Shown: in pieces, positions 4,713 through 17,067 of the stretch
Layout of the letters: each line of letters begins with the position of its first letter
Position numbering within the stretch: position 1 is the first letter of the stretch
Origin: Sediminibacterium sp.
GTDB lineage: Bacteria; Bacteroidota; Bacteroidia; Chitinophagales; Chitinophagaceae
Direction: 5' to 3'
Assembly (NCBI GenBank): GCA_028687975.1
Contig: JAQTZD010000003.1
Coordinates: forward strand, 1 to 64,000
Length of the DNA: 64,000 nucleotides
Notes under the pieces: model-generated
What the model saw: only the letters and a program-made list of their open reading frames with translations
Database searches by the model: none
Told to the model about the DNA's origin: nothing
Made by a program: the position numbers and the translations under genes

Positions 4713-4728
4713 TGTAACTTTTGTAACC
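4713..4728. promoter_or_regulatory. Putative Crp/Fnr-family operator upstream of the TPMT-family gene
   Basis: The 16-mer TGTAACTTTTGTAACC has the form GTNAC-N4-GTNAC also seen at 8002-8017 and 16363-16378. Its centre (4720.5) is 29.5 bp upstream of a degenerate -7 box GAACTTTA (4750-4757) that lies just before the ATG at 4762. The offset is identical to that at the other two promoters. The assignment to the regulator at 16423 is inferred. Confidence 0.55.
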
Positions 4729-4761
4729 CGGAAAATCTCCCGGGCTACAGAACTTTACAAG

Positions 4762-5349
4762 ATGCAGGAAAAAGAACTCAACGAACAGTATTGGAACAGC
4801 CAATACCTGAATAGTACTACCGGATGGGATATGAAACAGGTGTCCCCTCCGCTGAAAGCCTATATAGACCAGCTGACCAACAAGGATCTGCAGATACTGA
4901 TTCCCGGTTGCGGCAACAGCTATGAAGCGGAGTATTTGCTGAACCAGGGATTTACCAATATTACCCTGATCGATATTGCTCCTGCCCTGGTTGAATTGCT
5001 GCAGAAAAAATTTGCAGGCCAGCCTTCCATCAGGATTTTATTGGGCAATTTTTTTGAACACGAGGGAAGCTATGACCTGATCCTCGAACAAACCTTTTTT
5101 TGTGCACTGGATCCAGCCATGCGTCCGGCTTATGCTGCCAAAATGCACGAACTGCTGAAACCCGGCGGAACTCTTGCAGGTCTGTTGTTCAACCGCGAAT
5201 TTGAAGGAGGACCTCCTTTTGGCGGAAGCGAGGCCGAATACCGGGAACTTTTTGCAGAACAGTTTCGGATAAAGACCCTCGTACCCTGTTACAACTCGTT
5301 TATCAGAAGAGCAGACAGTGAGGTTTTTATGATTTTTATCAGGAAATAA
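4762..5349 (+). CDS. TPMT-family (thiopurine/thiol S-methyltransferase-like) methyltransferase
   Basis: This 195-residue protein matches the TPMT family: a N-terminal YWNSQYLNSTTGWDM, where the family has the GWD motif, the SAM site ILIPGCGNSYEAEYL near residue 45, and the LLFNREFEGGPPFGGS loop near residue 147. Bacterial members methylate thiols, halides, or selenium and tellurium compounds; the acceptor here is unknown. A putative Crp-type operator lies 34 bp upstream. The persulfide dioxygenase fusion starts 47 bp downstream on the same strand, so the two are probably co-expressed. Confidence 0.82.
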   Translation: MQEKELNEQYWNSQYLNSTTGWDMKQVSPPLKAYIDQLTNKDLQILIPGCGNSYEAEYLLNQGFTNITLIDIAPALVELLQKKFAGQPSIRILLGNFFEHEGSYDLILEQTFFCALDPAMRPAYAAKMHELLKPGGTLAGLLFNREFEGGPPFGGSEAEYRELFAEQFRIKTLVPCYNSFIRRADSEVFMIFIRK

Positions 5350-5396
5350 AGACAAAAAATATTCAGAACTTTGGCCCACTGTTAAAAATTACGCAT

Positions 5397-6812
5397 ATGA
5401 AAATTGAGCAGATTTATACAGGTTGTCTGGCACAGGGTGCCTACTACATCACCAGCAATGGGGAAGCCGCGATTGTTGACCCGTTGAGAGAAGTGCAACC
5501 CTATCTTGACCGGCTGGAAAAAGACGGTGTACAACTGAAATATATTTTTGAAACTCATTTTCATGCCGACTTTGTGAGTGGTCATCTGGACCTGAGAAAG
5601 AAAACAGGCGCCACCATTGTATACGGCCCCAATGCCGTTGCCGCTTTTGAGTGTGTATCCGCAAATGACAATGAAATTTTTCCACTGGGAAATATTCAAA
5701 TCAAAGTATTGCATACCCCCGGTCATACCATGGAGAGCAGTACTTTTCTGCTGATCGATGAAAACGGAAAAGATCATTGCATCTTCAGCGGCGACACCTT
5801 GTTTCTGGGAGATGTGGGCAGGCCCGATCTTGCTCAAAAAGCAGCGAACATGACCAAAGAGGAGCTGGCAGGCCTGCTTTATGAAAGCCTGATGCATAAA
5901 ATCATGCCACTGGCAGATGATGTGATCGTGTATCCTGCCCATGGTGCAGGAAGTGCCTGTGGAAAGAATATGATGAAGGAAACGGTGGATACACTGGGCA
6001 ATCAGAAACGAATCAATTATGCACTGAACCAGCCCAACAAAGACGCTTTTATCAAAGCGGTTACCGATGGGTTACTCCCTCCTCCAGGATATTTTGGAAT
6101 GAATGTAGCCATGAACAAACAGGGCTATGAAAGCTTTGATACTGTACTGAACAACGGAATGAAATCGCTTACACCCGACGAATTTGAAGTGATTGCAGAA
6201 AATGCGGAAGCGCTGATTCTCGACACCCGCAGCAATGCAGAATTTTACAAAGGGTACATCCCCCAATCGGTGAATATTGGCCTGGCAGGGGATTTCGCTC
6301 CCTGGGTAGGCGCCATGATTGTAGACGTAAAGCAACCCATTCTGTTGGTTACAGACCCAGGTAAAGAAGCCGAAGCCGTTACCCGTTTAAGCAGAGTTGG
6401 TTTTGACCATGTGCTGGGTCATTTGAAGGGAGGATTTGATGCCTGGATGAGGGCCGGTAAAGAAGCAGATACCGTCAACAGGGTTTCAGCACAGGCTTTC
6501 GCGGAAAATGTTGATATAGAAAAAGATCATATTATTGATGTAAGAAAGGAATCGGAGTTCTCTGCAGAACATGTAAAAAATGCCATCAACAAGCCCCTGG
6601 CATACATCAATGAATGGATCAGCAACATCAACCCGGAAGAACATTTCTTTCTGCACTGCGCGGGAGGTTATCGCAGTATGACGGCTGCATCCATTCTTCA
6701 GGCAAGAGGCTACAGAAATTTCACCGAAGTGGCCGGAGGCTTTGGAGAAATCAGTAAAACAGGCGTTCCCAAAACAGATTTTGCCTGTACGGCTGGCAAT
6801 AAAAAAGCATAA
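5397..6812 (+). CDS. Persulfide dioxygenase-rhodanese fusion (MBL domain plus two rhodanese domains)
   Basis: This 471-residue protein starts with an ETHE1-like MBL domain: THFHADFVSGH (H54, H56, D58), HTPGHTMESSTF, and the family mark GDVGRPDLA. Two rhodanese domains follow, about residues 260-355 and 365-465. The second has the active-site loop HCAGGYRS with Cys421; the first has VTDPGKEAE at that place and lacks the cysteine, so it is probably catalytically dead. ETHE1-type enzymes oxidise glutathione persulfide to sulfite and the rhodanese moves sulfane sulfur between thiols. It faces, tail to tail, the thioredoxin-YHS operon. No operator lies directly in front; a GAACTTTG box is at 5366. 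Confidence 0.92.
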   Translation: MKIEQIYTGCLAQGAYYITSNGEAAIVDPLREVQPYLDRLEKDGVQLKYIFETHFHADFVSGHLDLRKKTGATIVYGPNAVAAFECVSANDNEIFPLGNIQIKVLHTPGHTMESSTFLLIDENGKDHCIFSGDTLFLGDVGRPDLAQKAANMTKEELAGLLYESLMHKIMPLADDVIVYPAHGAGSACGKNMMKETVDTLGNQKRINYALNQPNKDAFIKAVTDGLLPPPGYFGMNVAMNKQGYESFDTVLNNGMKSLTPDEFEVIAENAEALILDTRSNAEFYKGYIPQSVNIGLAGDFAPWVGAMIVDVKQPILLVTDPGKEAEAVTRLSRVGFDHVLGHLKGGFDAWMRAGKEADTVNRVSAQAFAENVDIEKDHIIDVRKESEFSAEHVKNAINKPLAYINEWISNINPEEHFFLHCAGGYRSMTAASILQARGYRNFTEVAGGFGEISKTGVPKTDFACTAGNKKA

Positions 6813-6858
6813 TGCCATTATAAAACAGCATTATACTATGTAACAAAAGGGGGGAGCG

Positions 6859-7179
6859 TTATTTTTTTGCTGCTACGTAGGAAGCAGGATTTTTCAAAAA
6901 CTCATCCTTGCACTCTTTGGAGCAGAAACCATATACTTTTTTCTGGTAGTGTGCAGTGTCGGATACTCCTGCACTGATCGGCATTCCGCAGATAAAATCT
7001 TTATCGGAATCGAACTTCACTTCTTTGTACAAATCATGTACGTCGGTAGCAGTACTATCGGCATTCATGATAACTGTTTCTTTACTTTCAACACTGGTAT
7101 CAGATGCTTTCTTTTCTCCTTGTGAACAGGATTCGAGCACAACCAGTGCAACTGCGGCAACCAACATTTTCTTTACCAT
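6859..7179 (-). CDS. YHS-domain lipoprotein
   Basis: The ORF track begins at a TTG (7206); the ATG at 7179 gives a clean lipoprotein signal, MVKKMLVAAVALVVLESC, with the lipidated Cys at residue 18, and is preferred (106 residues). After a Ser/Thr/Asp-rich linker comes a YHS domain with Cys in DFICGMP and in FCSKECKDEF near residue 77. YHS domains bind metals and occur in heavy-metal pumps and copper proteins. It is the last gene of a four-gene minus-strand operon, after thioredoxin, and probably sits in the periplasm or outer membrane. Confidence 0.82.
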   Translation of the reverse strand: MVKKMLVAAVALVVLESCSQGEKKASDTSVESKETVIMNADSTATDVHDLYKEVKFDSDKDFICGMPISAGVSDTAHYQKKVYGFCSKECKDEFLKNPASYVAAKK

Positions 7180-7206
7180 ATACAAAGCTTTAGTATGAGG
7201 GTACAA

Positions 7207-7503
7207 TTATACTGCAAACTTTTTTAATATACTCACTAAAGCAGATTTAGGCACCACTCCGCTCTGCCTCCAAAGGGGCTGACCATTTTTGAATAAAATA
7301 AGGGTGGGCACTCCCTGAATCTGGTATGCACCAGCTGCAGCGGGGTTTTTGTCCACATCAATCTTGATAATGGAAGCAGCATCACCCACTTCAGATTTCA
7401 CTTCCTTCAGAATAGGTGCCATAGTTTTACAAGGGCCGCACCATTCAGCAAAAAAATCTACCAGCACCGGCTTGTCGGATTGAATCATTTCTGTAAATGT
7501 CAT
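7207..7503 (-). CDS. trxA: Thioredoxin
   Basis: This 98-residue protein is a minimal thioredoxin with the active site EWCGPCK (Cys22 and Cys25) and the cis-Pro loop [11 protein letters not shown] near residue 63. There is no signal peptide, so it works in the cytoplasm as a dithiol reductant. It sits between DUF6132 and the YHS lipoprotein in an operon behind a putative Crp-type site. It is therefore likely a dedicated, stress-linked thioredoxin rather than the main housekeeping one; that last point is inference. Confidence 0.93.
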
Positions 7504-7513
7504 ATGCTACGCT

Positions 7514-7726
7514 TTATACGGATTTATGTGTTTTCTCTTCTTTTTTGAACATACTCAGCACCAACCCTCCCATCAATGCCCCGTAAAGGGTACTGTTCAG
7601 GGGTTTCGACGTTATGGCACAGGTACCGGAAGCACATCCTACCAGTTTCCAGTACAGGAATCCGGCCACAGCACCCAGTATTGCCCCAATTAAAAAAAGG
7701 CTGTTCGATTTAAACCACTTCTTCAT
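7514..7726 (-). CDS. DUF6132-family small membrane protein
   Basis: This 70-residue protein has two hydrophobic helices (about residues 9-27 and 46-61) and a central KLVGCASGTCAITSKP segment with two cysteines, the pattern of Bacteroidota DUF6132 proteins. The function is unknown. The paired cysteines beside a thioredoxin gene 10 bp downstream suggest a membrane redox or sulfur-binding role, which is inference. Its first 17 bases overlap the preceding DUF2892-like gene. Confidence 0.75.
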   Translation of the reverse strand: MKKWFKSNSLFLIGAILGAVAGFLYWKLVGCASGTCAITSKPLNSTLYGALMGGLVLSMFKKEEKTHKSV

Positions 7727-7955
7727 AACTAATATCTTTTGTTGTTTGCTGATCTGCCCTTCTTCTGACAGGTGGCGTATAGCAGGCCCCGGTTCCGCAA
7801 CATCCCGTATTCAATAAAGCCATACCGGAAAAAAGCAACCCTACGATCCCAAAAACCACGTCCTTGGCCATCACAGCTTCCACAACTATTATAATGCCCA
7901 ATACAAGCCTTAACGCCCGCATGAATGTCCAGTTACGCAATATCAGTTCTTTCAT
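7710..7955 (-). CDS. DUF2892-like small membrane protein with a cysteine cluster
   Basis: This 81-residue protein has a hydrophobic core (LVLGIIIVVEAVMAKDVVFG and VGLLFSGMALL) followed by a NTGCCGTGAC cysteine cluster and a charged tail. This layout is common in Bacteroidota proteins related to the DUF2892/YgaP membrane domain, which in other bacteria is fused to rhodanese. It is the first gene of the operon to thioredoxin and YHS. A TAACTTTG box is 18 bp upstream and an operator-like palindrome 47 bp upstream. Confidence 0.65.
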   Translation of the reverse strand: MKELILRNWTFMRALRLVLGIIIVVEAVMAKDVVFGIVGLLFSGMALLNTGCCGTGACYTPPVRRRADQQTTKDISYEEVV

Positions 7956-7972
7956 ATAAGTTGTTTAAACAC

Positions 7973-7980
7973 CAAAGTTA
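7973..7980 (-). promoter_or_regulatory. -7 promoter box of the DUF2892-DUF6132-trxA-YHS operon
   Basis: On the minus strand this reads TAACTTTG, a perfect match to the Bacteroidota -7 consensus TAnnTTTG. No TTG lies at the expected -33 position. The putative operator centre is 29.5 bp upstream of its first base, which suits an activator-dependent promoter. Confidence 0.6.
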
Positions 7981-8001
7981 ATACAGGACGGCTTGCTTCA
8001 A

Positions 8002-8017
8002 AGTAACAAAGGTTACA
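8002..8017. promoter_or_regulatory. Putative Crp/Fnr-family operator in front of the trxA-YHS operon
   Basis: AGTAACAAAGGTTACA contains the perfect inverted repeat GTAAC-aaag-GTTAC, the most symmetric of the three GTNAC-N4-GTNAC sites in this window. It is centred at 8009.5, 29.5 bp upstream of the minus-strand TAACTTTG box. No good -7 box lies at the same distance on the plus strand, so it likely serves the minus operon rather than the carbonic anhydrase gene. Confidence 0.6.
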
Positions 8018-8108
8018 CAGCATTTTATATTAAAAATAAATTACATGGCACATAGTGATCAAGATAACAGCAGAAAATCAGTAACTTACGGTTGCAAACT
8101 GCCTTTAT

Positions 8109-8795
8109 ATGTCCTATTTTCAGTTCCACCCATTGGCAGCAGCACTCCTGATGATATTCGTGTTCAACAGTATTGGCTGCAGCAGCATAAACAAAAAGAG
8201 CGAACAGGAATCCATTGCAATAGATCCGCTTCAAGTGTTATTGGAAGGTAATAAGCGTTTTGCCAAAATGAAGCCGGTACACCCCGATGAGGACGTCTAC
8301 AGGCTCAGATCGGTAACCAGGGAGCAACATCCATTTGCTGTAATTGTGTCCTGTTCAGATAGCAGGGTGTCGCCCGAACTGATTTTTGATCAGGGAATCG
8401 GAGACTTGTTTATCATCAGAACTGCAGGAAATATTCTTGGCAATATCGGGCTGGGCAGCATAGAATATGCAGTTGAACACCTGCATGTAAAACTGATCAT
8501 GGTACTGGGGCATGAAAGGTGCGGAGCAGTGAGTGCATTTGTACAGGGAGAAAAAGTTCCCGGACATATCAGGGATATTATCGATAGCCTAAAGCAGGAA
8601 ATCGAAATCAAAGCAATCCCCTATACCGACCCCAACAGGCTGAACGATTGCATAAATGCCAATGTAGAACACGGCATCCGGCAACTGACTACTCAGTCTG
8701 AGATTATACGCGAAAAAGTAGAGGAAAAAGAATTACGAATTGTGGGCGGAATATATAACCTCGACAACCTGAGAGTGAAACTCATCCACCAGTAA
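8109..8795 (+). CDS. Beta-class carbonic anhydrase, predicted lipoprotein
   Basis: This 228-residue enzyme interconverts CO2 and bicarbonate. The zinc ligands are visible: Cys82 in SCSDSRVSPE with the Asp84-Arg86 dyad, then His135 and Cys138 in GHERCGAV. The N-terminus is a hydrophobic signal ending FNSIGC, a lipobox with Cys24, which places the enzyme in the envelope rather than the cytoplasm. It stands alone, 313 bp... of leader-free separation does not apply here: the nearest upstream gene is divergent, starting at 7955. Its regulation is not evident. Confidence 0.9.
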   Translation: MSYFQFHPLAAALLMIFVFNSIGCSSINKKSEQESIAIDPLQVLLEGNKRFAKMKPVHPDEDVYRLRSVTREQHPFAVIVSCSDSRVSPELIFDQGIGDLFIIRTAGNILGNIGLGSIEYAVEHLHVKLIMVLGHERCGAVSAFVQGEKVPGHIRDIIDSLKQEIEIKAIPYTDPNRLNDCINANVEHGIRQLTTQSEIIREKVEEKELRIVGGIYNLDNLRVKLIHQ

Positions 8796-8870
8796 GCGGA
8801 GCAGCCGCTTGTTCTTTCAGAAGGTTTAATTTGATCAACTCCGTAATATTTCAGTAAATTGAAAAAAAAG

Positions 8871-10031
8871 ATGAAGCTGTTCCTGAAATACCTGGGTCTG
8901 TTCCTACTGATTGCCCTGATTGCATTTTTTGCATTTGCACCCCGCTTTTTTGATGAATCCATGAACAAAGTGACGCTCAAAGTGGACCATCCGGAAAAAC
9001 CTGTATGGTACGACTCCATTCCTTTCATCGCAGACCTGCACTGTGATGCGTTGCTTTGGGACAGGGATAATCTTAAAAAGCACAGTTACGGGCATGTGGA
9101 TATTCCCCGTATGCAGGAGGCCAACATGGCATTTCAGGCATTTACCATTGTAAGTAAAACCCCCAGGGGAATCAATATTGAACAGAACAGCGATGAAACC
9201 GACCAGATTGCATTGCTGAGTTTTGCGCAGCTCCGCAGTCCAGAAGACTGGTTCAGCGTTAAAAAAAGAGCCCTGCACCAAACAAAGGAACTGTATAAAA
9301 CAGCAGAACAATCCAAGGGAAATTTCAGGGTGATTACCAGCAGGGAAAACCTGGAGCACTACATACAAAACAGGGCAGGTAACAGGTCGTTAACTGCCGG
9401 AATGCTCGGAATTGAAGGTGCTCATTGCCTCAACAACGAACTCAGCAACCTGAAGGAATTTTATGCTGCAGGTGTACGGTACATTGGTCTTGCACATTTC
9501 TTCGACAATGCCTGGGCAGGATCTGCACATGGCATGGTTAAAGGAGGACTTACCGAAAAAGGCAGGCAACTGGTGCGTGCCATGGACAGCATGCATGTGA
9601 TCATTGATATTGCACATTCATCTGCCAAAACCATTGATGATGTTTTTGCACTCACCAACAGCCCGGTGATCATTTCTCATACCGGAATAAAAGGGGTATG
9701 CGATAACAACCGCAACCTCTCCGACAAGCACCTGCTGGAAATGGGCCGGCGCAACGGGTTGGTGGGCATCGGTCTTTGGGAAACTGCGGTATGCGGAACA
9801 GATGCAGCAGCTACAGCAAAGAGCATTCGCTATGTAGCAGATAAAATTGGCGTAGACAAAGTGGCCCTGGGCTCTGATTTTGATGGGGCAATCGGTACCC
9901 ACTTCGACGTTACTGGTTTGCCGCTGATCGTAAATGCCTTGCTGAAAGAAGGTTTCAGCAAAGAAGATATTTACCGGATCATGGGCGGCAATGTGCGCGA
10001 TTTCCTGTTGAGAAATCTTCCGGCAAAATAA
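8871..10031 (+). CDS. Membrane-anchored dipeptidase, peptidase family M19 (renal dipeptidase type)
   Basis: The ORF track starts at a TTG (8859); the ATG at 8871 gives 386 residues beginning with one N-terminal transmembrane helix (LFLKYLGLFLLIALIAFFAF). The catalytic domain shows the M19 zinc motifs: IADLHCDALLW, GIEGAHCL, IDIAHSS, ISHTGIKGVCDNNRNL and GSDFDGA. M19 enzymes cleave dipeptides, including ones with D-residues. The enzyme is probably tethered to the inner membrane facing the periplasm. It follows carbonic anhydrase by 75 bp and is convergent with the RND operon. Confidence 0.9.
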   Translation: MKLFLKYLGLFLLIALIAFFAFAPRFFDESMNKVTLKVDHPEKPVWYDSIPFIADLHCDALLWDRDNLKKHSYGHVDIPRMQEANMAFQAFTIVSKTPRGINIEQNSDETDQIALLSFAQLRSPEDWFSVKKRALHQTKELYKTAEQSKGNFRVITSRENLEHYIQNRAGNRSLTAGMLGIEGAHCLNNELSNLKEFYAAGVRYIGLAHFFDNAWAGSAHGMVKGGLTEKGRQLVRAMDSMHVIIDIAHSSAKTIDDVFALTNSPVIISHTGIKGVCDNNRNLSDKHLLEMGRRNGLVGIGLWETAVCGTDAAATAKSIRYVADKIGVDKVALGSDFDGAIGTHFDVTGLPLIVNALLKEGFSKEDIYRIMGGNVRDFLLRNLPAK

Positions 10032-10066
10032 AGCACTTTTTATCCGGCTGCTGCTTCGTATAAGGA

Positions 10067-10104
10067 TTGATGAATGAACCCGTACAAACAGGTTCATTCA
10101 TCAA
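10067..10104. terminator. Perfect 14-bp inverted repeat between convergent genes, probable bidirectional terminator
   Basis: TTGATGAATGAACC and GGTTCATTCATCAA flank a 10-base loop. It lies between the ends of the dipeptidase and the DUF2892 gene. There is no T run on either side, so classic Rho-independent termination is not assured. Confidence 0.5.
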
Positions 10105-10121
10105 TTCATCGGCTATACGGA

Positions 10122-10340
10122 TTAGCAGCAGTTTTTTTGACCGGATGCCTCGTTGCTCTTCACACCAGCCTTGTCCAGGATCAGTTCCAGCGGACAAAAA
10201 CGGGTAAACGAAGATTGCAACAGGTTCAGGCCTACAAACACGCCCAGCCACAAAAATTTAATACTTACAAAATAAGCCAGTGAAACACTGATCAGTACAA
10301 AACTGCCTGCAACGGCACGAACAATTCTTTCTTTTGTCAT
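10122..10340 (-). CDS. DUF2892 (YgaP-like) small membrane protein
   Basis: The reading frame opens at a TTG (10367), but the ATG at 10340 (MTKERIVRAVAGSFVLIS) matches the usual DUF2892 start, giving 72 residues. Two hydrophobic helices are followed by the typical SSFTRFCPLELILDKAGVK segment, and the tail ends in a Cys pair. DUF2892 domains occur in the membrane rhodanese YgaP and as free-standing proteins near sulfur and metal genes. It is the fifth and last gene of the RND operon, 7 bp after the PII-like gene. Confidence 0.85.
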   Translation of the reverse strand: MTKERIVRAVAGSFVLISVSLAYFVSIKFLWLGVFVGLNLLQSSFTRFCPLELILDKAGVKSNEASGQKNCC

Positions 10341-10347
10341 AATGAAT

Positions 10348-10656
10348 TTAATTAGAGGTTTTTTCAACAGGCATTACAAATGCCCTGATCGGAAAATCGC
10401 CAGGAAATTCCTGGTTATATTGATTAATTAATGTAAGTGCGTGATCCGCATTCTCTTCTCCCGTAAAGGAGAAGAGAAATATGGAGTCAAATTTTGCGTC
10501 ACCGGAGCTAAACCAGTTATCGAGCAGGTATTTATCCGATCCGTTTTTAAATCCAATCGTATCGGTAGCACTGTATACCCTGATATCGGCCTTTTTGAAA
10601 ATGGCTGCAACGATTTCGGCAGATTCCTTCAACGCTGTTACAAATAATAATTTCAT
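10348..10656 (-). CDS. Small PII-like protein of the RND operon, function unknown
   Basis: This 102-residue soluble protein starts MKLLFVTALKESAEIVAAIF and shows a strand-helix-strand pattern resembling PII-like ferredoxin folds such as DUF3240, a family found beside CusA/CzcA-type pumps. No signal peptide or metal-binding cluster is seen. It lies 10 bp after the RND permease and 7 bp before DUF2892, so it is part of the efflux operon. A regulatory or trimeric sensor role is a guess from fold resemblance. Confidence 0.6.
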   Translation of the reverse strand: MKLLFVTALKESAEIVAAIFKKADIRVYSATDTIGFKNGSDKYLLDNWFSSGDAKFDSIFLFSFTGEENADHALTLINQYNQEFPGDFPIRAFVMPVEKTSN

Positions 10657-10666
10657 AGTCGTTTGT

Positions 10667-13600
10667 TTATTTGGTTTTTCCCCGCATCATTTTGTAATAC
10701 AGCAGCGGAACAACCAATAAGGTTAAGAATGTAGAGGTAATGGTACCGCCCATCAGTGAGATGGCCAATCCCTGGAACACCGGATCAAATAAGATAATCA
10801 CTGCACCCAGTACCACCGCTCCCGCTGTTAATAAGATCGGAGTAGTTCTTACAGCTCCGGCCTCGATGATGGATTGCTTTAACGGAATACCTTCCTTCAA
10901 CCGGATATTGATGAAGTCGATCAACAACACCGAGTTCCTTACCATCACCCCCGCCAGTGCAATAAAACCAATCATAGACGTAGCAGTGAAATAGGCACCC
11001 ATTATCCAGTGACCGGCCAGAATACCGATCAGTGAAAGCGGTATGGCGGCAAGCATCACCAAAGGCACGGTGAAGTTCTGAAACCAACCCACAATCAACA
11101 TATAGATGATCAGAATTACAGCGGCAAAAGCAATACCCAGATCGCGGAACACTTCGTAAGTGATCTGCCATTCACCATCCCATTTCAACGAATACTCATC
11201 GGTGTTGGTGGGCTGGCTGGTATATTCTTCTTTCAGTACCAGGTATCCTTCGGGCAGTTTTATATTTTTCAAACTGTCCGACATAGCAGACATGGCATAG
11301 AAAGGACTCTCCAGCTTACCGGCCATATCGGCCAGCACGTACACCACTTCCTTCTGGTTCTTCCGGTAAATACTCTTGTCTTTGATCACTGTACTTACTT
11401 TTACCAGATTCCTGAGCGGCACCATATTACCCTGCATTCCTTTTACCTGCAGATCCAGCACCTGATTGATGCTGCCCTTCTCTGCATCTTTGAGTTGCAA
11501 CTGAATCGGTACCTGGCTGAAAGCAGCAGGCTGATTCAGTTTACCGGCTGTGGTACCAGACAATGCACCCTGTATGGTTGCAGTAATCTGAGCGGCGGCC
11601 ACACCATTCAGCATGGCTTTTTCCTTATCCACAGACAGTTTATACTCTTTCTGATCGTCTTCCATCTGCCAGTCTACATCCACTACATCCGTTGTTGTGT
11701 TCATCAGCTGCTTTACCTGTTCGGCAATGGCAATCTGCTGTTCATAGTCCGGGCCATAAATTTCTGCGACCATGGTAGACAGTACAGGAGGACCCGGAGG
11801 AACTTCCACCACTTTTACATTGGCGTTGTAGCGGGCACCGATTTTTTGCAGGGGCTCACGCATTTCTTTTGCAATATCATGACTCTGAATACTGCGTTCG
11901 GTTTTATCTACCAGATTTACCTGGATATCTGCTACATGTTCCCCCCTTCTTAAATCGTAATGGCGAACCAGTCCGTTAAAACTGATGGGAGCTGATGTTC
12001 CCACATAGCCCTGATAATTCCTCACCATCGGCTGTGCAGATACGTATTGCGCAATATCAGCGGCAACAGCCTGTGTTTTCTCGAGGGTAGATCCTTCGGG
12101 CATATCAATGACTACCTGAAATTCATTCTTATTATCGAAAGGAAGCATTTTTACCGCTACCTGCTTGCTGGTGATCAGTAAAGTGGACCCAAGCAACACT
12201 ACTACAGTACCCATAATAAAGGCCCAACGCTTCCACCTGGTTTCCAGCATCGGATGAATAAACCGGTAGTATATTTTATAGATGCCAGTTTCTTCCAGTA
12301 CGGTTCCTTTGGTTTCCTCATGTGCAACACCCTTCTTCTCTTTTTCGCGCAGGAAGATATAACCCAGGTATGGTGTCAGTGTTAATGCTACGATCAGAGA
12401 AAGCAGCATGGCAATGGCAGCTCCGATTGGCATCGGACTCATATAGGGCCCCATCATACCGGATACAAATGCCATCGGCAACACGGCTGCAACCACTGTG
12501 AACGTGGCCAGTATGGTAGGATTACCCACTTCGTTGATGGCATAGATAGCAGCCTGTAATGGCGGCAGTTTACGCATCTTGAAATGGCGGTGCATATTTT
12601 CTGCAATGATGATGGAATCATCCACTACAATACCCGTAATAAATACCAGTGCAAACAGGGTAATTCTGTTCAGTGTATAATCCATGAAATAGTAACTGAA
12701 CAATGTTAGTGCAAATGTCACCGGCACGGAAAGGAATACCACCAATCCGCCTCTCCATCCCATGGCCAGCATCACAAAGAGCGTAACCACTACAATGGAA
12801 ATAAACAGGTGGAACAACAATTCACTTACTTTATGAGAAGCAGAATCGCCATAGTTTCTTGTTTCTGAAACCTGCACATCTGAAGGAATCAAATCCTTTT
12901 TCAGGTGTTCTACTTTTTCTTTAATTGCGGTGGAGAGCCGCATAGCATCCGCTCCGGATTTTTTGGCCACGGCAAGTGTTACTGCCGGATAAGCAGACTT
13001 GAAGTGGTTTGCACCGGCTGTATCGGCCTTACCATATCCAAAGAACACATACTGAGCAGCCGTAGACGGTGCTTCCTCTACCTGAGCCACCTGGTTCAGG
13101 TAAACAGGCTGTCCGCCTTTTAAGCCCACTACTAGTTTGGCCACATCTTCTGCTGTATTCAGGAAATCACCGGTTTGAATGGTGAATGCAGAATCATTGT
13201 GAATCAGTTTGCCCGCTTCGGTCTGCACATTTCCGGCCTGGATTGCCTGGGTAATACCCAGCAGATCTACACCATTCAGCGCCATCAGCGATTTATCCAA
13301 TTCCACTTTTACTTCTCTGTTTCTGCCACCGGTAACAGATACTTCGGCCACATCGGAAACCTTCTTGATTTCATTGGCCAGTTCCTGTCCGATCAACTTC
13401 AACCGATAGTCGTCGTAGTTTTCTCCCCAAAGGGTAAGCCCCAGTACCGGTACATCATCAATGGCCCTGGGCTTCACCAATGGCATGGTTACCCCCTGCG
13501 GCATGGCATCCATATGCTTCATGATTTCACTGTACAGTTTCACCAGCGACTTCTCAACATCTTCTCCCACATAAAACTGTACAATCAGCATCACCTGACC

Positions 13601-13873
13601 CTGCATGGAAGTAGAGTAAACATATTCCACGCCCTTAATATTAGAAATGAATTTTTCCATCGGAGCCGCAATCTTGGTTTCCACTTCCTTAGGATTTGCA
13701 CCCGGATAACCGATAAAGATATCGGCCATAGGAACCTGGATCTGCGGTTCTTCTTCGCGGGGAATCAGCATCGTGCTGTATCCGCCAATCAGCAGGAAAG
13801 CTACCATCAGCAGGATGGTCAGTTTCGACTGCAAAAAACCTTTTGCTATATTACCTGATAAACCTTTTTCCAT
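10667..13873 (-). CDS. RND efflux permease (AcrB/MexB-like)
   Basis: This 1068-residue inner-membrane pump has the full AcrB layout: a first TM helix near residue 16-36, two large periplasmic loops, and TM blocks around residues 340-540 and 875-1060. TM4 carries GIVVDDSIIIAEN, with the paired Asp of the proton relay typical of drug-type (HAE) rather than metal-type (HME) pumps. It would work with the adaptor and TolC encoded just upstream in the same operon. The substrate is unknown. The operon is preceded by a putative Crp-type site. Confidence 0.95.
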   Translation of the reverse strand: MEKGLSGNIAKGFLQSKLTILLMVAFLLIGGYSTMLIPREEEPQIQVPMADIFIGYPGANPKEVETKIAAPMEKFISNIKGVEYVYSTSMQGQVMLIVQFYVGEDVEKSLVKLYSEIMKHMDAMPQGVTMPLVKPRAIDDVPVLGLTLWGENYDDYRLKLIGQELANEIKKVSDVAEVSVTGGRNREVKVELDKSLMALNGVDLLGITQAIQAGNVQTEAGKLIHNDSAFTIQTGDFLNTAEDVAKLVVGLKGGQPVYLNQVAQVEEAPSTAAQYVFFGYGKADTAGANHFKSAYPAVTLAVAKKSGADAMRLSTAIKEKVEHLKKDLIPSDVQVSETRNYGDSASHKVSELLFHLFISIVVVTLFVMLAMGWRGGLVVFLSVPVTFALTLFSYYFMDYTLNRITLFALVFITGIVVDDSIIIAENMHRHFKMRKLPPLQAAIYAINEVGNPTILATFTVVAAVLPMAFVSGMMGPYMSPMPIGAAIAMLLSLIVALTLTPYLGYIFLREKEKKGVAHEETKGTVLEETGIYKIYYRFIHPMLETRWKRWAFIMGTVVVLLGSTLLITSKQVAVKMLPFDNKNEFQVVIDMPEGSTLEKTQAVAADIAQYVSAQPMVRNYQGYVGTSAPISFNGLVRHYDLRRGEHVADIQVNLVDKTERSIQSHDIAKEMREPLQKIGARYNANVKVVEVPPGPPVLSTMVAEIYGPDYEQQIAIAEQVKQLMNTTTDVVDVDWQMEDDQKEYKLSVDKEKAMLNGVAAAQITATIQGALSGTTAGKLNQPAAFSQVPIQLQLKDAEKGSINQVLDLQVKGMQGNMVPLRNLVKVSTVIKDKSIYRKNQKEVVYVLADMAGKLESPFYAMSAMSDSLKNIKLPEGYLVLKEEYTSQPTNTDEYSLKWDGEWQITYEVFRDLGIAFAAVILIIYMLIVGWFQNFTVPLVMLAAIPLSLIGILAGHWIMGAYFTATSMIGFIALAGVMVRNSVLLIDFINIRLKEGIPLKQSIIEAGAVRTTPILLTAGAVVLGAVIILFDPVFQGLAISLMGGTITSTFLTLLVVPLLYYKMMRGKTK

Positions 13874-13879
13874 TACTGA

Positions 13880-14980
13880 TTATTTAATTTTTACCGGAGC
13901 ACCGTTATACAATCTGCCTTCTGCGGAAAGAATATATTGTTCATCCTTTGCCAGTCCGGAAAGCACTTCTGCCTGATCTCCTGTTGTTTTACCCAGTCTC
14001 ACCCAACGCAGCAATGCGGTGTTCTGAGAACTGATGGTATACACACCGGTCAGCTGGTCGCGGTGAACAAAGGCGCTCACCGGAATCATTACTGCTCCGG
14101 ATTCACTGGAAACAGCTGTGGATACCCCTTTTACAGGAAACTGCACATGCACAAACATGCCTGCATATACTTGTTTGGTATCGGCCGGAATAGAAATCTT
14201 CACGATATACTGACCACCCGAAAACTGGGAAGAAGGATTCAGCTGAATGATTTTTCCTTCAATGTTTTTTTCTGCAGAGGCAATTTTCAATATGGCAGGA
14301 TCACCGAGTTTCAGGGAACCAATCTGATTCTCTGCAACAGATGCGCTCACCTGCAGACTTCCTGCCTGCTCAATGGTCAGCACCGGCATACCCGGAGTAG
14401 CCATACTTCCTGCGTCCATCATTTTCTGCGTTACGATTCCTGCAAACGGAGCAGTAACCGTGGTATAGGAAAGATTGGCAGACACTTCGTTCTTCATTTG
14501 CCTGGCTGCTTCTGCGGCTGCTTTAGCAGACTGATACTGCAGGGTTACCTGGTCCAGTTCTTTTGCAGATGCGCTCTGTTGTTTGTACAAAGTAGTGAAC
14601 CGATCATAATCTTTTTTGGCATTGCTCAGGGCAGCTTCTGCCTGTGCAATCATCGCATCTGTTTGTGCACGCTTTGCATGAATATCGGCACTGTTCACTG
14701 CAAACAGCAGCTGACCGGCTCTTACCCGATCACCCACTTTCACCGGCATTTGGGTAATATATCCCATTGCGCGGGTACTGATGTTTGCAGAATGCGCAGC
14801 TTCCACCTGGCCACTGGCTTCAATCCAACCGCTCGCAGCAGCACCACCGGGGCTGGCAACAGTTACCATAACAGGCGCCTGTTCTTTTACAACTTTATTT
14901 TCTTCCTTACCCGAGCAACCAACCATCGCAACTGTGGCAGTGAGTGCTGTAAGGGCTATTGTGATTTTTCTAAATAACAT
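13880..14980 (-). CDS. RND efflux periplasmic adaptor subunit, lipoprotein
   Basis: This 366-residue membrane fusion protein begins with a lipoprotein signal ending AMVGC. It shows the adaptor order: barrel-sandwich halves (ISTRAMGYITQMPVKVGDRV near residue 70 and YTTVTAPFAGIVTQ near residue 172) around a coiled-coil hairpin (residues 105-165 rich in Ala, Lys and Gln), then beta-barrel and membrane-proximal domains. It links the RND permease to TolC. It starts 22 bp after tolC and ends 6 bp before the permease. Confidence 0.93.
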   Translation of the reverse strand: MLFRKITIALTALTATVAMVGCSGKEENKVVKEQAPVMVTVASPGGAAASGWIEASGQVEAAHSANISTRAMGYITQMPVKVGDRVRAGQLLFAVNSADIHAKRAQTDAMIAQAEAALSNAKKDYDRFTTLYKQQSASAKELDQVTLQYQSAKAAAEAARQMKNEVSANLSYTTVTAPFAGIVTQKMMDAGSMATPGMPVLTIEQAGSLQVSASVAENQIGSLKLGDPAILKIASAEKNIEGKIIQLNPSSQFSGGQYIVKISIPADTKQVYAGMFVHVQFPVKGVSTAVSSESGAVMIPVSAFVHRDQLTGVYTISSQNTALLRWVRLGKTTGDQAEVLSGLAKDEQYILSAEGRLYNGAPVKIK

Positions 14981-15002
14981 ATGATCCTTTTTTGAAGTGA
15001 TT

Positions 15003-16316
15003 TTATTGATTGGTTGTTAAGAATTGTAAATAGGTAGCTGTATTCTTTTGCATGAATATGGCCTGTGCCTTCAGCATCTTTTGCTGCGACAGCTGTGTCT
15101 GGGCCATCAGCAGATCGGTGGTATTCGCCAAACCCTGCTGGTACCTGTTCTGCATAATTCGCAGCGATTCTGCAGCCTGTTCAACTGCCTTGGTCTGCTG
15201 GCTGATCCGGTAACGGGTATCCGCAAGTTGTGTTTGCGTTTTCCTGATTTCCACATCGCTTTTTGCCAGCATATCCTGCAGCTGTTCCTGTAATTTATTT
15301 TTCTCCAGTTGCTGGGTAGCTTTTTTATTTTTCGCCTGGTTGCCTTTAAAAATATCCCATGACAACTGAATACCTGCCAGGTAAGAATTGGCGCCAAATC
15401 CGAACATGGATTTATCGTTGTACTGATAGTTGGCAAAACCATTCAGTTTGGGCGCCATCGACATAGATGTACTCTTAATGGCCATATCGTAGGCAGATAC
15501 TGCAGCAGACATGGCTTTAAAGTCGGCTCTGTCGGCAGATACGGATGCTGCGGTTGCGGCAGGTACATCAATCACTACCGGTTCTGTGGTATAAACAACT
15601 CCACCGGGTGTATTCATCAGCAGACTAAGCTGATCAGAAATGGTTTTTATCTGTGAACGGGCTTCTGCAAGATTGGTTTCCGCAGCTTTTACCTGAACTT
15701 CCACATTCAGGAGATCCGATTGCTGCATCAGGCCCTGCTGGTAGCGATCGTTCGTAAAGCGATGAATTTCCTGAACGGTTTTCAGGGCCTCCTCCAGCAC
15801 TTTCACTACTTCATAGGTAAACTCCAGCTGCAGATACGTGTTGGTCACCTGCATTTCCACCGCTTCACGGGTTCTTTTTGTTTGATAACCATATACCTCA
15901 GTCTGTTTGGAAGCAGCTTTACGCATATAGTTGAGATCGGGGTTGAACAGGGGTTGCTGCACACTCAACTGGGTCATGATATTGGGTGTTGCACCCGGGT
16001 TATTCAGCAATGCAGGATTAAAATCTGCCTGCTGCACATTGGCCTGTTGCAGTTTAAAACCAAAAGCATTCAGGGGCTGGTTGGTGGTAAATCCGGTATA
16101 AGACAGGTTTACCTGTGGCAGCCAGATTGCCTCCGTTTGTTTAAACTGAGACTGTGCAATTTTTTCGTCGTTCACTGCCAGGCTGATTTGCCTGTTCTTT
16201 TCCTGTGCCAGCCGGATGGCATCTCCCAAAACCAGTTTTTGAACCTGCTCCTGTGCGTTACCGCCCAATGCAGCGATCAGCAGCAGCGCTAACAGTAATT
16301 TCCTTTTATATACCAT
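15003..16316 (-). CDS. TolC-family outer membrane efflux protein
   Basis: This 437-residue protein has a signal peptide (LLLALLLIAALGGNAQ) and two OEP repeats rich in heptad-like helices. Repeats such as RYQQGLMQQSDLLNVEVQVKAAE near residue 190 and RYQQGLANTTDLLMAQTQLSQQ near residue 395 are characteristic. It forms the outer-membrane duct of the tripartite pump. It is the first gene of the five-gene operon, with a TAGTTTTG box 17 bp upstream and a GTNAC-type palindrome further out. Confidence 0.93.
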   Translation of the reverse strand: MVYKRKLLLALLLIAALGGNAQEQVQKLVLGDAIRLAQEKNRQISLAVNDEKIAQSQFKQTEAIWLPQVNLSYTGFTTNQPLNAFGFKLQQANVQQADFNPALLNNPGATPNIMTQLSVQQPLFNPDLNYMRKAASKQTEVYGYQTKRTREAVEMQVTNTYLQLEFTYEVVKVLEEALKTVQEIHRFTNDRYQQGLMQQSDLLNVEVQVKAAETNLAEARSQIKTISDQLSLLMNTPGGVVYTTEPVVIDVPAATAASVSADRADFKAMSAAVSAYDMAIKSTSMSMAPKLNGFANYQYNDKSMFGFGANSYLAGIQLSWDIFKGNQAKNKKATQQLEKNKLQEQLQDMLAKSDVEIRKTQTQLADTRYRISQQTKAVEQAAESLRIMQNRYQQGLANTTDLLMAQTQLSQQKMLKAQAIFMQKNTATYLQFLTTNQ

Positions 16317-16333
16317 ATGCTCATTTTATGATG

Positions 16334-16341
16334 CAAAACTA
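16334..16341 (-). promoter_or_regulatory. -7 promoter box of the tolC-RND operon
   Basis: The minus strand reads TAGTTTTG, a perfect TAnnTTTG match. The centre of the putative operator (16370.5) is 29.5 bp upstream of its first base, the same offset as at the trxA-YHS operon. No TTG is found at the -33 position. Confidence 0.6.
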
Positions 16342-16362
16342 TCCCGCCCCAACCCCCTGCAG

Positions 16363-16378
16363 TGTAACTTATGTAACA
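16363..16378. promoter_or_regulatory. Putative Crp/Fnr-family operator between the RND operon and its regulator
   Basis: TGTAACTTATGTAACA is an imperfect palindrome matching its own reverse complement at 12 of 16 positions and fits TGTNAC-N4-GTNACA. It has the geometry of a CRP site (TGTGA-N6-TCACA) with a changed half-site. It lies in the divergent intergenic region and could serve both tolC (minus) and the regulator gene (plus). Confidence 0.6.
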
Positions 16379-16396
16379 TTGGAAGCGACCATTCCC

Positions 16397-16404
16397 TAAC
16401 TTTG
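16397..16404 (+). promoter_or_regulatory. -7 promoter box of the Crp-family gene
   Basis: TAACTTTG fits TAnnTTTG exactly, 18 bp before the ATG at 16423. The operator centre is 26.5 bp upstream, closer than for the divergent tolC promoter, so binding here could overlap the -33 region and be autoregulatory. Confidence 0.5.
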
Positions 16405-16422: not shown

Positions 16423-17067
16423 ATGACTCATCTGGAACAGTTAAAGGGCGTTTTTGAGCCGGAATTATTGCAGGAGATGGAACAATTTGGCATCTACCAG
16501 TCCTTTAAAGAAGGGGAATTGGTGATGGATTATGGCAAGTACATCCGCATGATGCCCATTGTATTGAAGGGTACTGTAAAAGTGCACCGGCTGGATGAAA
16601 ACAACAATGAAATTCTCCTCTATTATCTCTCCAGCAGCGAAAGTTGTTCTATGGCTTACAGTTGTTGTGTGGAAGCCAAAAAAAGCGAGGTGAAGGCGGT
16701 GGCAGAAGACGATGTGGAACTGATCGGCATTCCCCATGTAAAGCTGGATGAATGGCTCTGTAAATACCCCAGCTGGAAGAACTATGTGATGCGGAGTTTC
16801 AATGTAAGGTTTATTGAACTGCTGAAGTCGATCGAGAGCATTGCCTTTCATAAGCTGGACGAAAGGCTGATTTCTTACCTGAAAGAAAAACAACGCCTGA
16901 GCGGTTCCAGTGTAATCAAAGCTTCGCACAATACCATAGCAGACGAACTGGCTACCTCGCGGGTGGTCATTTCCCGTTTGCTGAAACAGCTGGAGAACAG
17001 TAAAAAAATCATTCTGTACCGGAATGAAATCAAGCTCCTCAGCGGATTCGAAACCCCGCTCAAGTAA
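16423..17067 (+). CDS. Crp/Fnr-family transcriptional regulator
   Basis: The track opens at a TTG inside the -7 box (16402); the ATG at 16423 is the real start, giving 214 residues. A cyclic-nucleotide-binding-like beta-barrel covers about residues 15-125, and a winged helix follows with the recognition helix in ASHNTIADELATSRVVISRL near residue 170-190. Position R-V-V-I-S-R replaces the R-E-T---R of CRP that reads TGTGA, which agrees with the different GTNAC half-site nearby. No FNR-type cysteine cluster is obvious at the N-terminus; C-S-M-A-Y-S-C-C near residue 73-80 could be a sensing site. It is divergent from the RND operon. Confidence 0.88.
   Translation: MTHLEQLKGVFEPELLQEMEQFGIYQSFKEGELVMDYGKYIRMMPIVLKGTVKVHRLDENNNEILLYYLSSSESCSMAYSCCVEAKKSEVKAVAEDDVELIGIPHVKLDEWLCKYPSWKNYVMRSFNVRFIELLKSIESIAFHKLDERLISYLKEKQRLSGSSVIKASHNTIADELATSRVVISRLLKQLENSKKIILYRNEIKLLSGFETPLK

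Follow-up and report, generated by a model that had tools for sequence, protein, structure and literature searches.

A probable Crp/Fnr-family regulon for sulfide and sulfane-sulfur detoxification in Bacteroidota

Introduction

SqrR/BigR (ArsR family), CstR (CsoR family) and similar regulators sense sulfane sulfur via cysteines. Their targets are genes for detoxifying sulfide and persulfide, in the case of BigR that of the MBL-rhodanese enzyme Blh (PMC5823870). These regulators belong to unrelated families and are mostly repressors, unlike the Crp/Fnr protein at a class II activator position described here. Within the Crp family, NtcA of cyanobacteria recognizes the box GTA-N8-TAC, which contains GTAAC-N4-GTTAC, and acts by class II activation from a centre at -41.5 (PMC3898017), and the Crp/Fnr-family regulator HcpR2 of Clostridium, Bacteroides and Thermotogales has the consensus GTAACnnnnGTTAC (PMC1274295). 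The half-site (HcpR2 and NtcA), the promoter geometry (NtcA) and persulfide sensing by cysteines (ArsR and CsoR families) are already known. When NaHS is added to sediment, sqr and pdo transcripts increase in phyla that include Bacteroidota (PMC12345210). For this phylum, the searched literature, outside which most subscription journals lie, yielded no Crp/Fnr-type regulator that responds to sulfide or persulfide.

Operators and genes of the window

The window, that is, the whole stretch of 64,000 nucleotides from Sediminibacterium sp. that was analysed, contains three bare GTNAC-N4-GTNAC sites against 0.41 expected; 2 of 100 shuffles also reach three. The features are as follows.

4714-4727, forward: operator GTAACTTTTGTAAC of the TPMT-PDO operon, with the 14-bp core GTNAC-N4-GTNAC
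4750-4757, forward: degenerate -7 box GAACTTTA of the TPMT promoter, 29.5 bp from the operator centre
4762-5349, forward: TPMT-family S-methyltransferase, 195 aa (Pfam PF05724, 1.4e-28)
5397-6812, forward: persulfide-dioxygenase-like MBL fold fused to two rhodanese domains, 471 aa (Pfam Lactamase_B, Rhodanese x2)
6859-7206, reverse: lipoprotein-like protein with a YHS domain, closing the trx operon (Pfam PF04945)
7207-7503, reverse: thioredoxin TrxA (TIGR01068, 116.3 bits against a cut-off of 96.8)
7514-7726, reverse: small two-helix membrane ORF, by sequence resembling an ORF of relative L080 that carries DUF6132
7710-7955, reverse: YgaP-like small membrane ORF (by sequence), 81 aa, which opens the trx operon behind the operator
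7980-7973, reverse: -7 box TAACTTTG of the trx promoter, first base 29.5 bp from the operator centre
8003-8016, reverse: operator GTAACCTTTGTTAC of the trx-YHS operon, with the GTNAC-N4-GTNAC core
10348-10656, reverse: 102-aa protein closing the RND operon, matching neither a Pfam nor an NCBIfam model
10667-13873, reverse: RND efflux permease (profile match)
13880-14980, reverse: RND periplasmic adaptor (TIGR01730, 201.8 bits)
15003-16316, reverse: TolC-family outer-membrane channel (profile match)
16341-16334, reverse: -7 box TAGTTTTG of the tolC promoter, 29.5 bp from the centre of the shared operator
16364-16377, no strand assigned: operator GTAACTTATGTAAC shared by tolC and crp, between the two genes
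16397-16404, forward: crp's own box TAACTTTG, 26.5 bp from the shared operator, opposite the tolC box
16423-17067, forward: Crp/Fnr-family regulator, 214 aa (Pfam cNMP_binding and HTH_Crp_2; alignments; AlphaFold model)

The initial annotation had described one form common to the three sites, and this form, GTNAC-N4-GTNAC, is found at each of them, the 14-bp cores lying one base inside the spans first reported. The distance of 29.5 bp from operator centre to box start that had been claimed for trxA and tolC is exact, the degenerate box at TPMT does occupy the identical offset, and none of the three promoters has a TTG at -33, where related promoters carry one in 3 of 165 cases. TPMT has the weakest of the three promoters, with two box mismatches, and since its predicted +1 coincides with the annotated ATG, either the start or the box may be misassigned; in relative L187, TPMT stands behind the operator GTAACCTTTGTTAC with the box CACTTTTG at 29.5 bp. 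The MBL-rhodanese gene follows TPMT after 47 bp on the same strand, and its product matches PDB 3tp9 (1.6e-59) and human ETHE1 (4chl, 4e-13). In the trx operon the two small membrane ORFs come before thioredoxin and then the YHS protein. Relatives L080-L083 conserve the 102-aa protein as the closing gene of the RND operon within their RND-crp cluster.

The regulator gene is divergent from the RND operon and has one operator in common with it, as had been proposed, and L180, with a 93% identical regulator, keeps both the tolC and the crp box. The crp box, at 26.5 bp, puts the centre of the shared operator at -38.5. This spacing, likewise kept in L180, suggests autoregulation of another kind.

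Promoter geometry across Bacteroidota

We surveyed loci around regulator homologues (100 from Chitinophagaceae, 80 in a named Bacteroidota-wide set and 40 in a class-wide set) and scored the box in the spacing counts with at most one mismatch to TAnnTTTG. In the Chitinophagaceae loci the box lies at 29.5 bp for 53 of 83 sites, at 30.5 bp for 6 and at other offsets for 0-5 each, while Markov-1 controls of this set gave 4-17 sites and 0-1 boxes at 29.5 bp, without a peak. The same spacing holds for 109 of 120 sites in the named set and for 25 of 35 in the class-wide set; a minor peak at 30.5 bp is seen in the Chitinophagaceae and class-wide sets, and the remaining offsets are near background. 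Site and box are kept at orthologous operons across Bacteroidota, which was the conservation anticipated for a true regulon. A regulator of the Bacteroidota type was also met in L203 and L243, titled Bifidobacterium breve and Fibrobacteres, bins that are probably misnamed or contaminated.

The sigma-A box TAnnTTTG of Flavobacterium psychrophilum spans -12 to -5 (PMC9723704). Because the box starts at -12, 29.5 bp downstream, the operator centre would be at -41.5, where class II activators bind, with the site apparently replacing the -35/-33 element as in activator-dependent promoters. The comparative site-box data support the earlier proposal of a Crp-family regulon with such promoters, and the DNA-level parts of this predicted regulon are strongly supported.

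The regulator and its probable DNA specificity

The regulator scores over the cut-offs for PF00027 and PF13545, which places it in the Crp/Fnr family, and its best Foldseek matches are CAP, NtcA, FNR and CRP. Among its PDB sequence matches is NtcA, which likewise has Val where CRP has Glu181 (RVTVTR) but differs in its 2-oxoglutarate ligand, its nitrogen genes, the lack of the Cys motif and a TAN3T -10 box; membership in NtcA was rejected at 44.2 bits against the NCBIfam cut-off of 244.95. The cAMP-responsive CRP (Glu72, Arg82-Ser83, TGTGA site) was likewise discarded, the cassette reading SESCSMAYSCCVEAKKSE and the score being 31.9 bits against a cut-off of 266, as was an FNR-type Fe-S sensor with its N-terminal cysteine cluster, the window protein having no cysteine before residue 75. 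The best PDB sequence match is 3dv8 (8e-18), a Crp/Fnr protein of Eubacterium rectale with an aligned C-x5-C, which is from Firmicutes and, despite this motif, is without known (sulfur) function. The cysteine-bearing Crp/Fnr branch may extend to Firmicutes.

Alignment bears out the earlier reading that V-V at 181-182 stands in place of the CRP Glu-Thr, with R180 and R185 retained. In CRP, Glu181 contacts the base pair equivalent to N of GTNAC. Residues 180 and 181 have been treated as specificity positions (PMC1274295). Among 181 regulators, residue 181 is Val in 113, Glu in 63, Ala in 4 and Thr in 1, a variety limited in one homologue set by a search pattern that permitted only V or E. The N of the half-site is G in 43/70 cases with Glu181 vs 17/314 with Val181 (Fisher p 9e-25), Val181 regulators being paired with GTAAC and Glu181 regulators with GTGAC; at 7 of 121 loci a Val181 regulator goes with G-rich sites. 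After correction for the tree there are 3 supported independent pairs, of which 2.4 on average go in the same direction, too few for a significant sign test. The association in these sequences is strong, but the independent switches are few, all or nearly all as expected. That V-V would suit a changed half-site, as first suggested, is upheld by residue 181 co-varying with the base it is expected to contact.

Sites in the genome and their co-occurrence with the regulator

Bare sites number 23 in the 2.97 Mb of the genome against about 19 by chance (extrapolated from window shuffles), and two of the three on contig 19 lie inside a gyrase-type coding gene. Since this count is near chance, the bare site alone is weak evidence and only the site with its box was used. 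A reversed-pattern control gave 157 matches and was set aside because the reversed pattern is of different composition. The comparison with chance on which the sites had been staked divides accordingly: the bare sites show no excess, and site plus box is far above chance.

We scanned the genome for the site with a box at 29.5 bp, allowing up to two mismatches. The matches with no more than one mismatch whose site is perfect or nearly so are the trx operon, tolC-RND and one gene each on contigs 19, 23 and 63. The contig-19 gene encodes a 554-aa flavoprotein-rhodanese fusion closest to CoA-disulfide/CoA-persulfide reductases (PDB 3icr, 5e-169; the CoA-persulfide reductase 8a56, 2e-142), the contig-23 product is a type III SQR (NF049943, 644.7 bits against a cut-off of 525; human SQR 8dhk, 8e-44), and that of contig 63 is a small rhodanese. 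A further match on C133, at a CoA-transferase-like gene with one site mismatch, is probably due to chance. The theme of these predicted targets is the handling of sulfide and sulfane sulfur, which, together with the unlinked members and an invariant cysteine, goes beyond the initial annotation.

For 150 Chitinophagaceae genomes, we called a regulator close when at least 44% identical and absent when there was no match at 1e-20. Strict site-box matches occur in 21 of the 28 genomes with a close regulator vs 2 of the 38 without (Fisher p 2e-9), that is, 47 matches (1.7 per genome) against 2 (0.05 per genome), and genomes with 33-44% identical homologues have an intermediate frequency. Of the seven cNMP-domain proteins in the Sediminibacterium genome, only one is in this regulator's subfamily.

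Gene content of the predicted regulon in relatives

The first genes behind site-box promoters encode persulfide dioxygenase, rhodanese, TauE/SafE, TolC, YgaP-like protein, YeeE, SQR, SulP, peroxiredoxin, OsmC, TPMT, thioredoxin, a SorA-like molybdenum sulfite dehydrogenase, cytochrome bd, a cytochrome-c-like protein, DUF983, DUF6132 and the regulator itself. Because regulator-linked loci are sulfur-rich by ascertainment, the unlinked sites weigh most, and strict unlinked matches in eight relatives include SQR, two TolC genes, thioredoxin and two DUF983 genes. Genes of sulfide and persulfide oxidation, the mark of a persulfide regulator, are present in the regulon (SQR, persulfide dioxygenase, rhodanese and the CoA-persulfide-reductase-like protein); RND, YHS, DUF983 and SulP would also suit a response to metals or oxidants. 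In Flavobacteria, cytochrome bd subunit I (L259:9713-11041), a SorA-like sulfite dehydrogenase (L250:14942-16159) and a SulP permease (L244:8705-10438) stand behind a site-box promoter. DUF983 recurs as first gene (L346:1029-1472, L350:1560-1970, L237:7570-7965).

Candidate sensor cysteines

The regulator carries Cys75, Cys81 and Cys82, which are found in 181/181, 144/181 and 105 of the 181 regulators, respectively. In the AlphaFold model (mean pLDDT 88.7) a helix of residues 76-84 follows the fifth strand, with Cys75 at the helix start, and this region, where the regulator reads SESCSMAYSCCVEAKKSE, aligns with the cAMP-binding cassette of CRP. Persulfide or polysulfide may modify Cys75. A Cys75-Cys81 disulfide or polysulfide bridge cannot be universal, because 37 of 181 regulators lack Cys81; the product at Cys75 therefore need not be a Cys-Cys bridge.

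Interpretation and alternatives

We consider it likely that the regulator is a class II activator of a sulfide and sulfane-sulfur detoxification regulon that is switched by persulfide or polysulfide. From the sites, their geometry, conservation and co-variation, the gene content and the invariance of the cysteine, all read from sequence, we infer that the regulator binds and activates, what signal it answers to, the chemistry at the cysteine and the substrates of TPMT and the RND pump. A regulator dimer would bind GTNAC-N4-GTNAC at -41.5, substituting for the missing -33 element, and would activate the Bacteroidota sigma-A promoters (TAnnTTTG) in class II mode. SQR would convert sulfide to persulfide, the MBL-rhodanese dioxygenase and the rhodaneses would oxidise or transfer sulfane sulfur, and persulfides would be reduced by the CoA-persulfide-reductase-like enzyme and thioredoxin. 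TPMT probably methylates a thiol or sulfide, and the TauE, YeeE, YgaP and RND proteins may transport sulfur species or thiols. A persulfide or polysulfide on Cys75 (and on Cys81/82 where present), in the cAMP pocket of CRP, would switch the regulator on.

The same class II regulon could answer to a small ligand or to another stress that is oxidative or attacks thiols (hypochlorite, electrophiles, redox state), the sulfur genes then serving thiol repair in general. Ligand binding is what the Crp fold is made for, Cys81 is not universal, and the targets include thioredoxin, peroxiredoxin, OsmC and RND, but SQR, persulfide dioxygenase, TauE, YeeE, SulP, the SorA-like protein and cytochrome bd are specific to sulfide and sulfite handling, and we judge this reading to be rather unlikely. 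A regulon for metal efflux (copper, zinc, cobalt), in which RND, YHS and TPMT would form a metal/metalloid resistance island, is considerably less probable: the adaptor matches CzcB-type and the permease CusA-type models, and YHS domains can bind metals, yet the permease has a higher multidrug than CusA/CzcA score, both below cut-off, and the unlinked members are SQR, persulfide reductase and rhodanese.

That the regulator is HcpR2, which controls hcp and nitrosative stress, is least probable of all, even with its identical consensus GTAACnnnnGTTAC (PMC1274295) and with P. gingivalis HcpR (9day) among the fold matches. At position 181, where HcpR2 carries Pro, the regulators here have Val or Glu, and Pro occurs in none of the 181; no P. 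gingivalis HcpR chain is among the four PDB sequence matches at E 0.001, and hcp is absent from the first genes of about 170 promoters, so we rejected membership. The sites might also be repressor operators, and at the 26.5-bp crp box, kept in L180, the site would indeed cover the -33 region. We regard this as improbable for the regulon, since an offset of 29.5 bp is the one expected of class II activators and -33 is empty, as in NtcA-activated promoters (PMC3898017), and repression is plausible only for crp itself.

Significance

A Crp/Fnr-family regulon for sulfide and sulfane-sulfur detoxification across Bacteroidota is probably new relative to the searched literature, in which the sqr and pdo response of this phylum has so far been without a described regulator. 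A regulon controlled by the proposed activator would be predictable from sequence in any Bacteroidota genome by the regulator-site-promoter rule, would place DUF983, DUF6132, the YgaP-like protein and the RND pump in a sulfur context, and would illustrate cleanly how class II activation works at this phylum's unusual -33/-7 promoters. More tentatively, and with slightly more doubt than confidence on our part, Crp/Fnr activators throughout the phylum may sense persulfide directly via the invariant cysteine at the place of cAMP in CRP, so that a cyclic-nucleotide pocket would have been turned into a sulfane-sulfur switch and these proteins would be the main regulators of sulfide detoxification in Bacteroidota.
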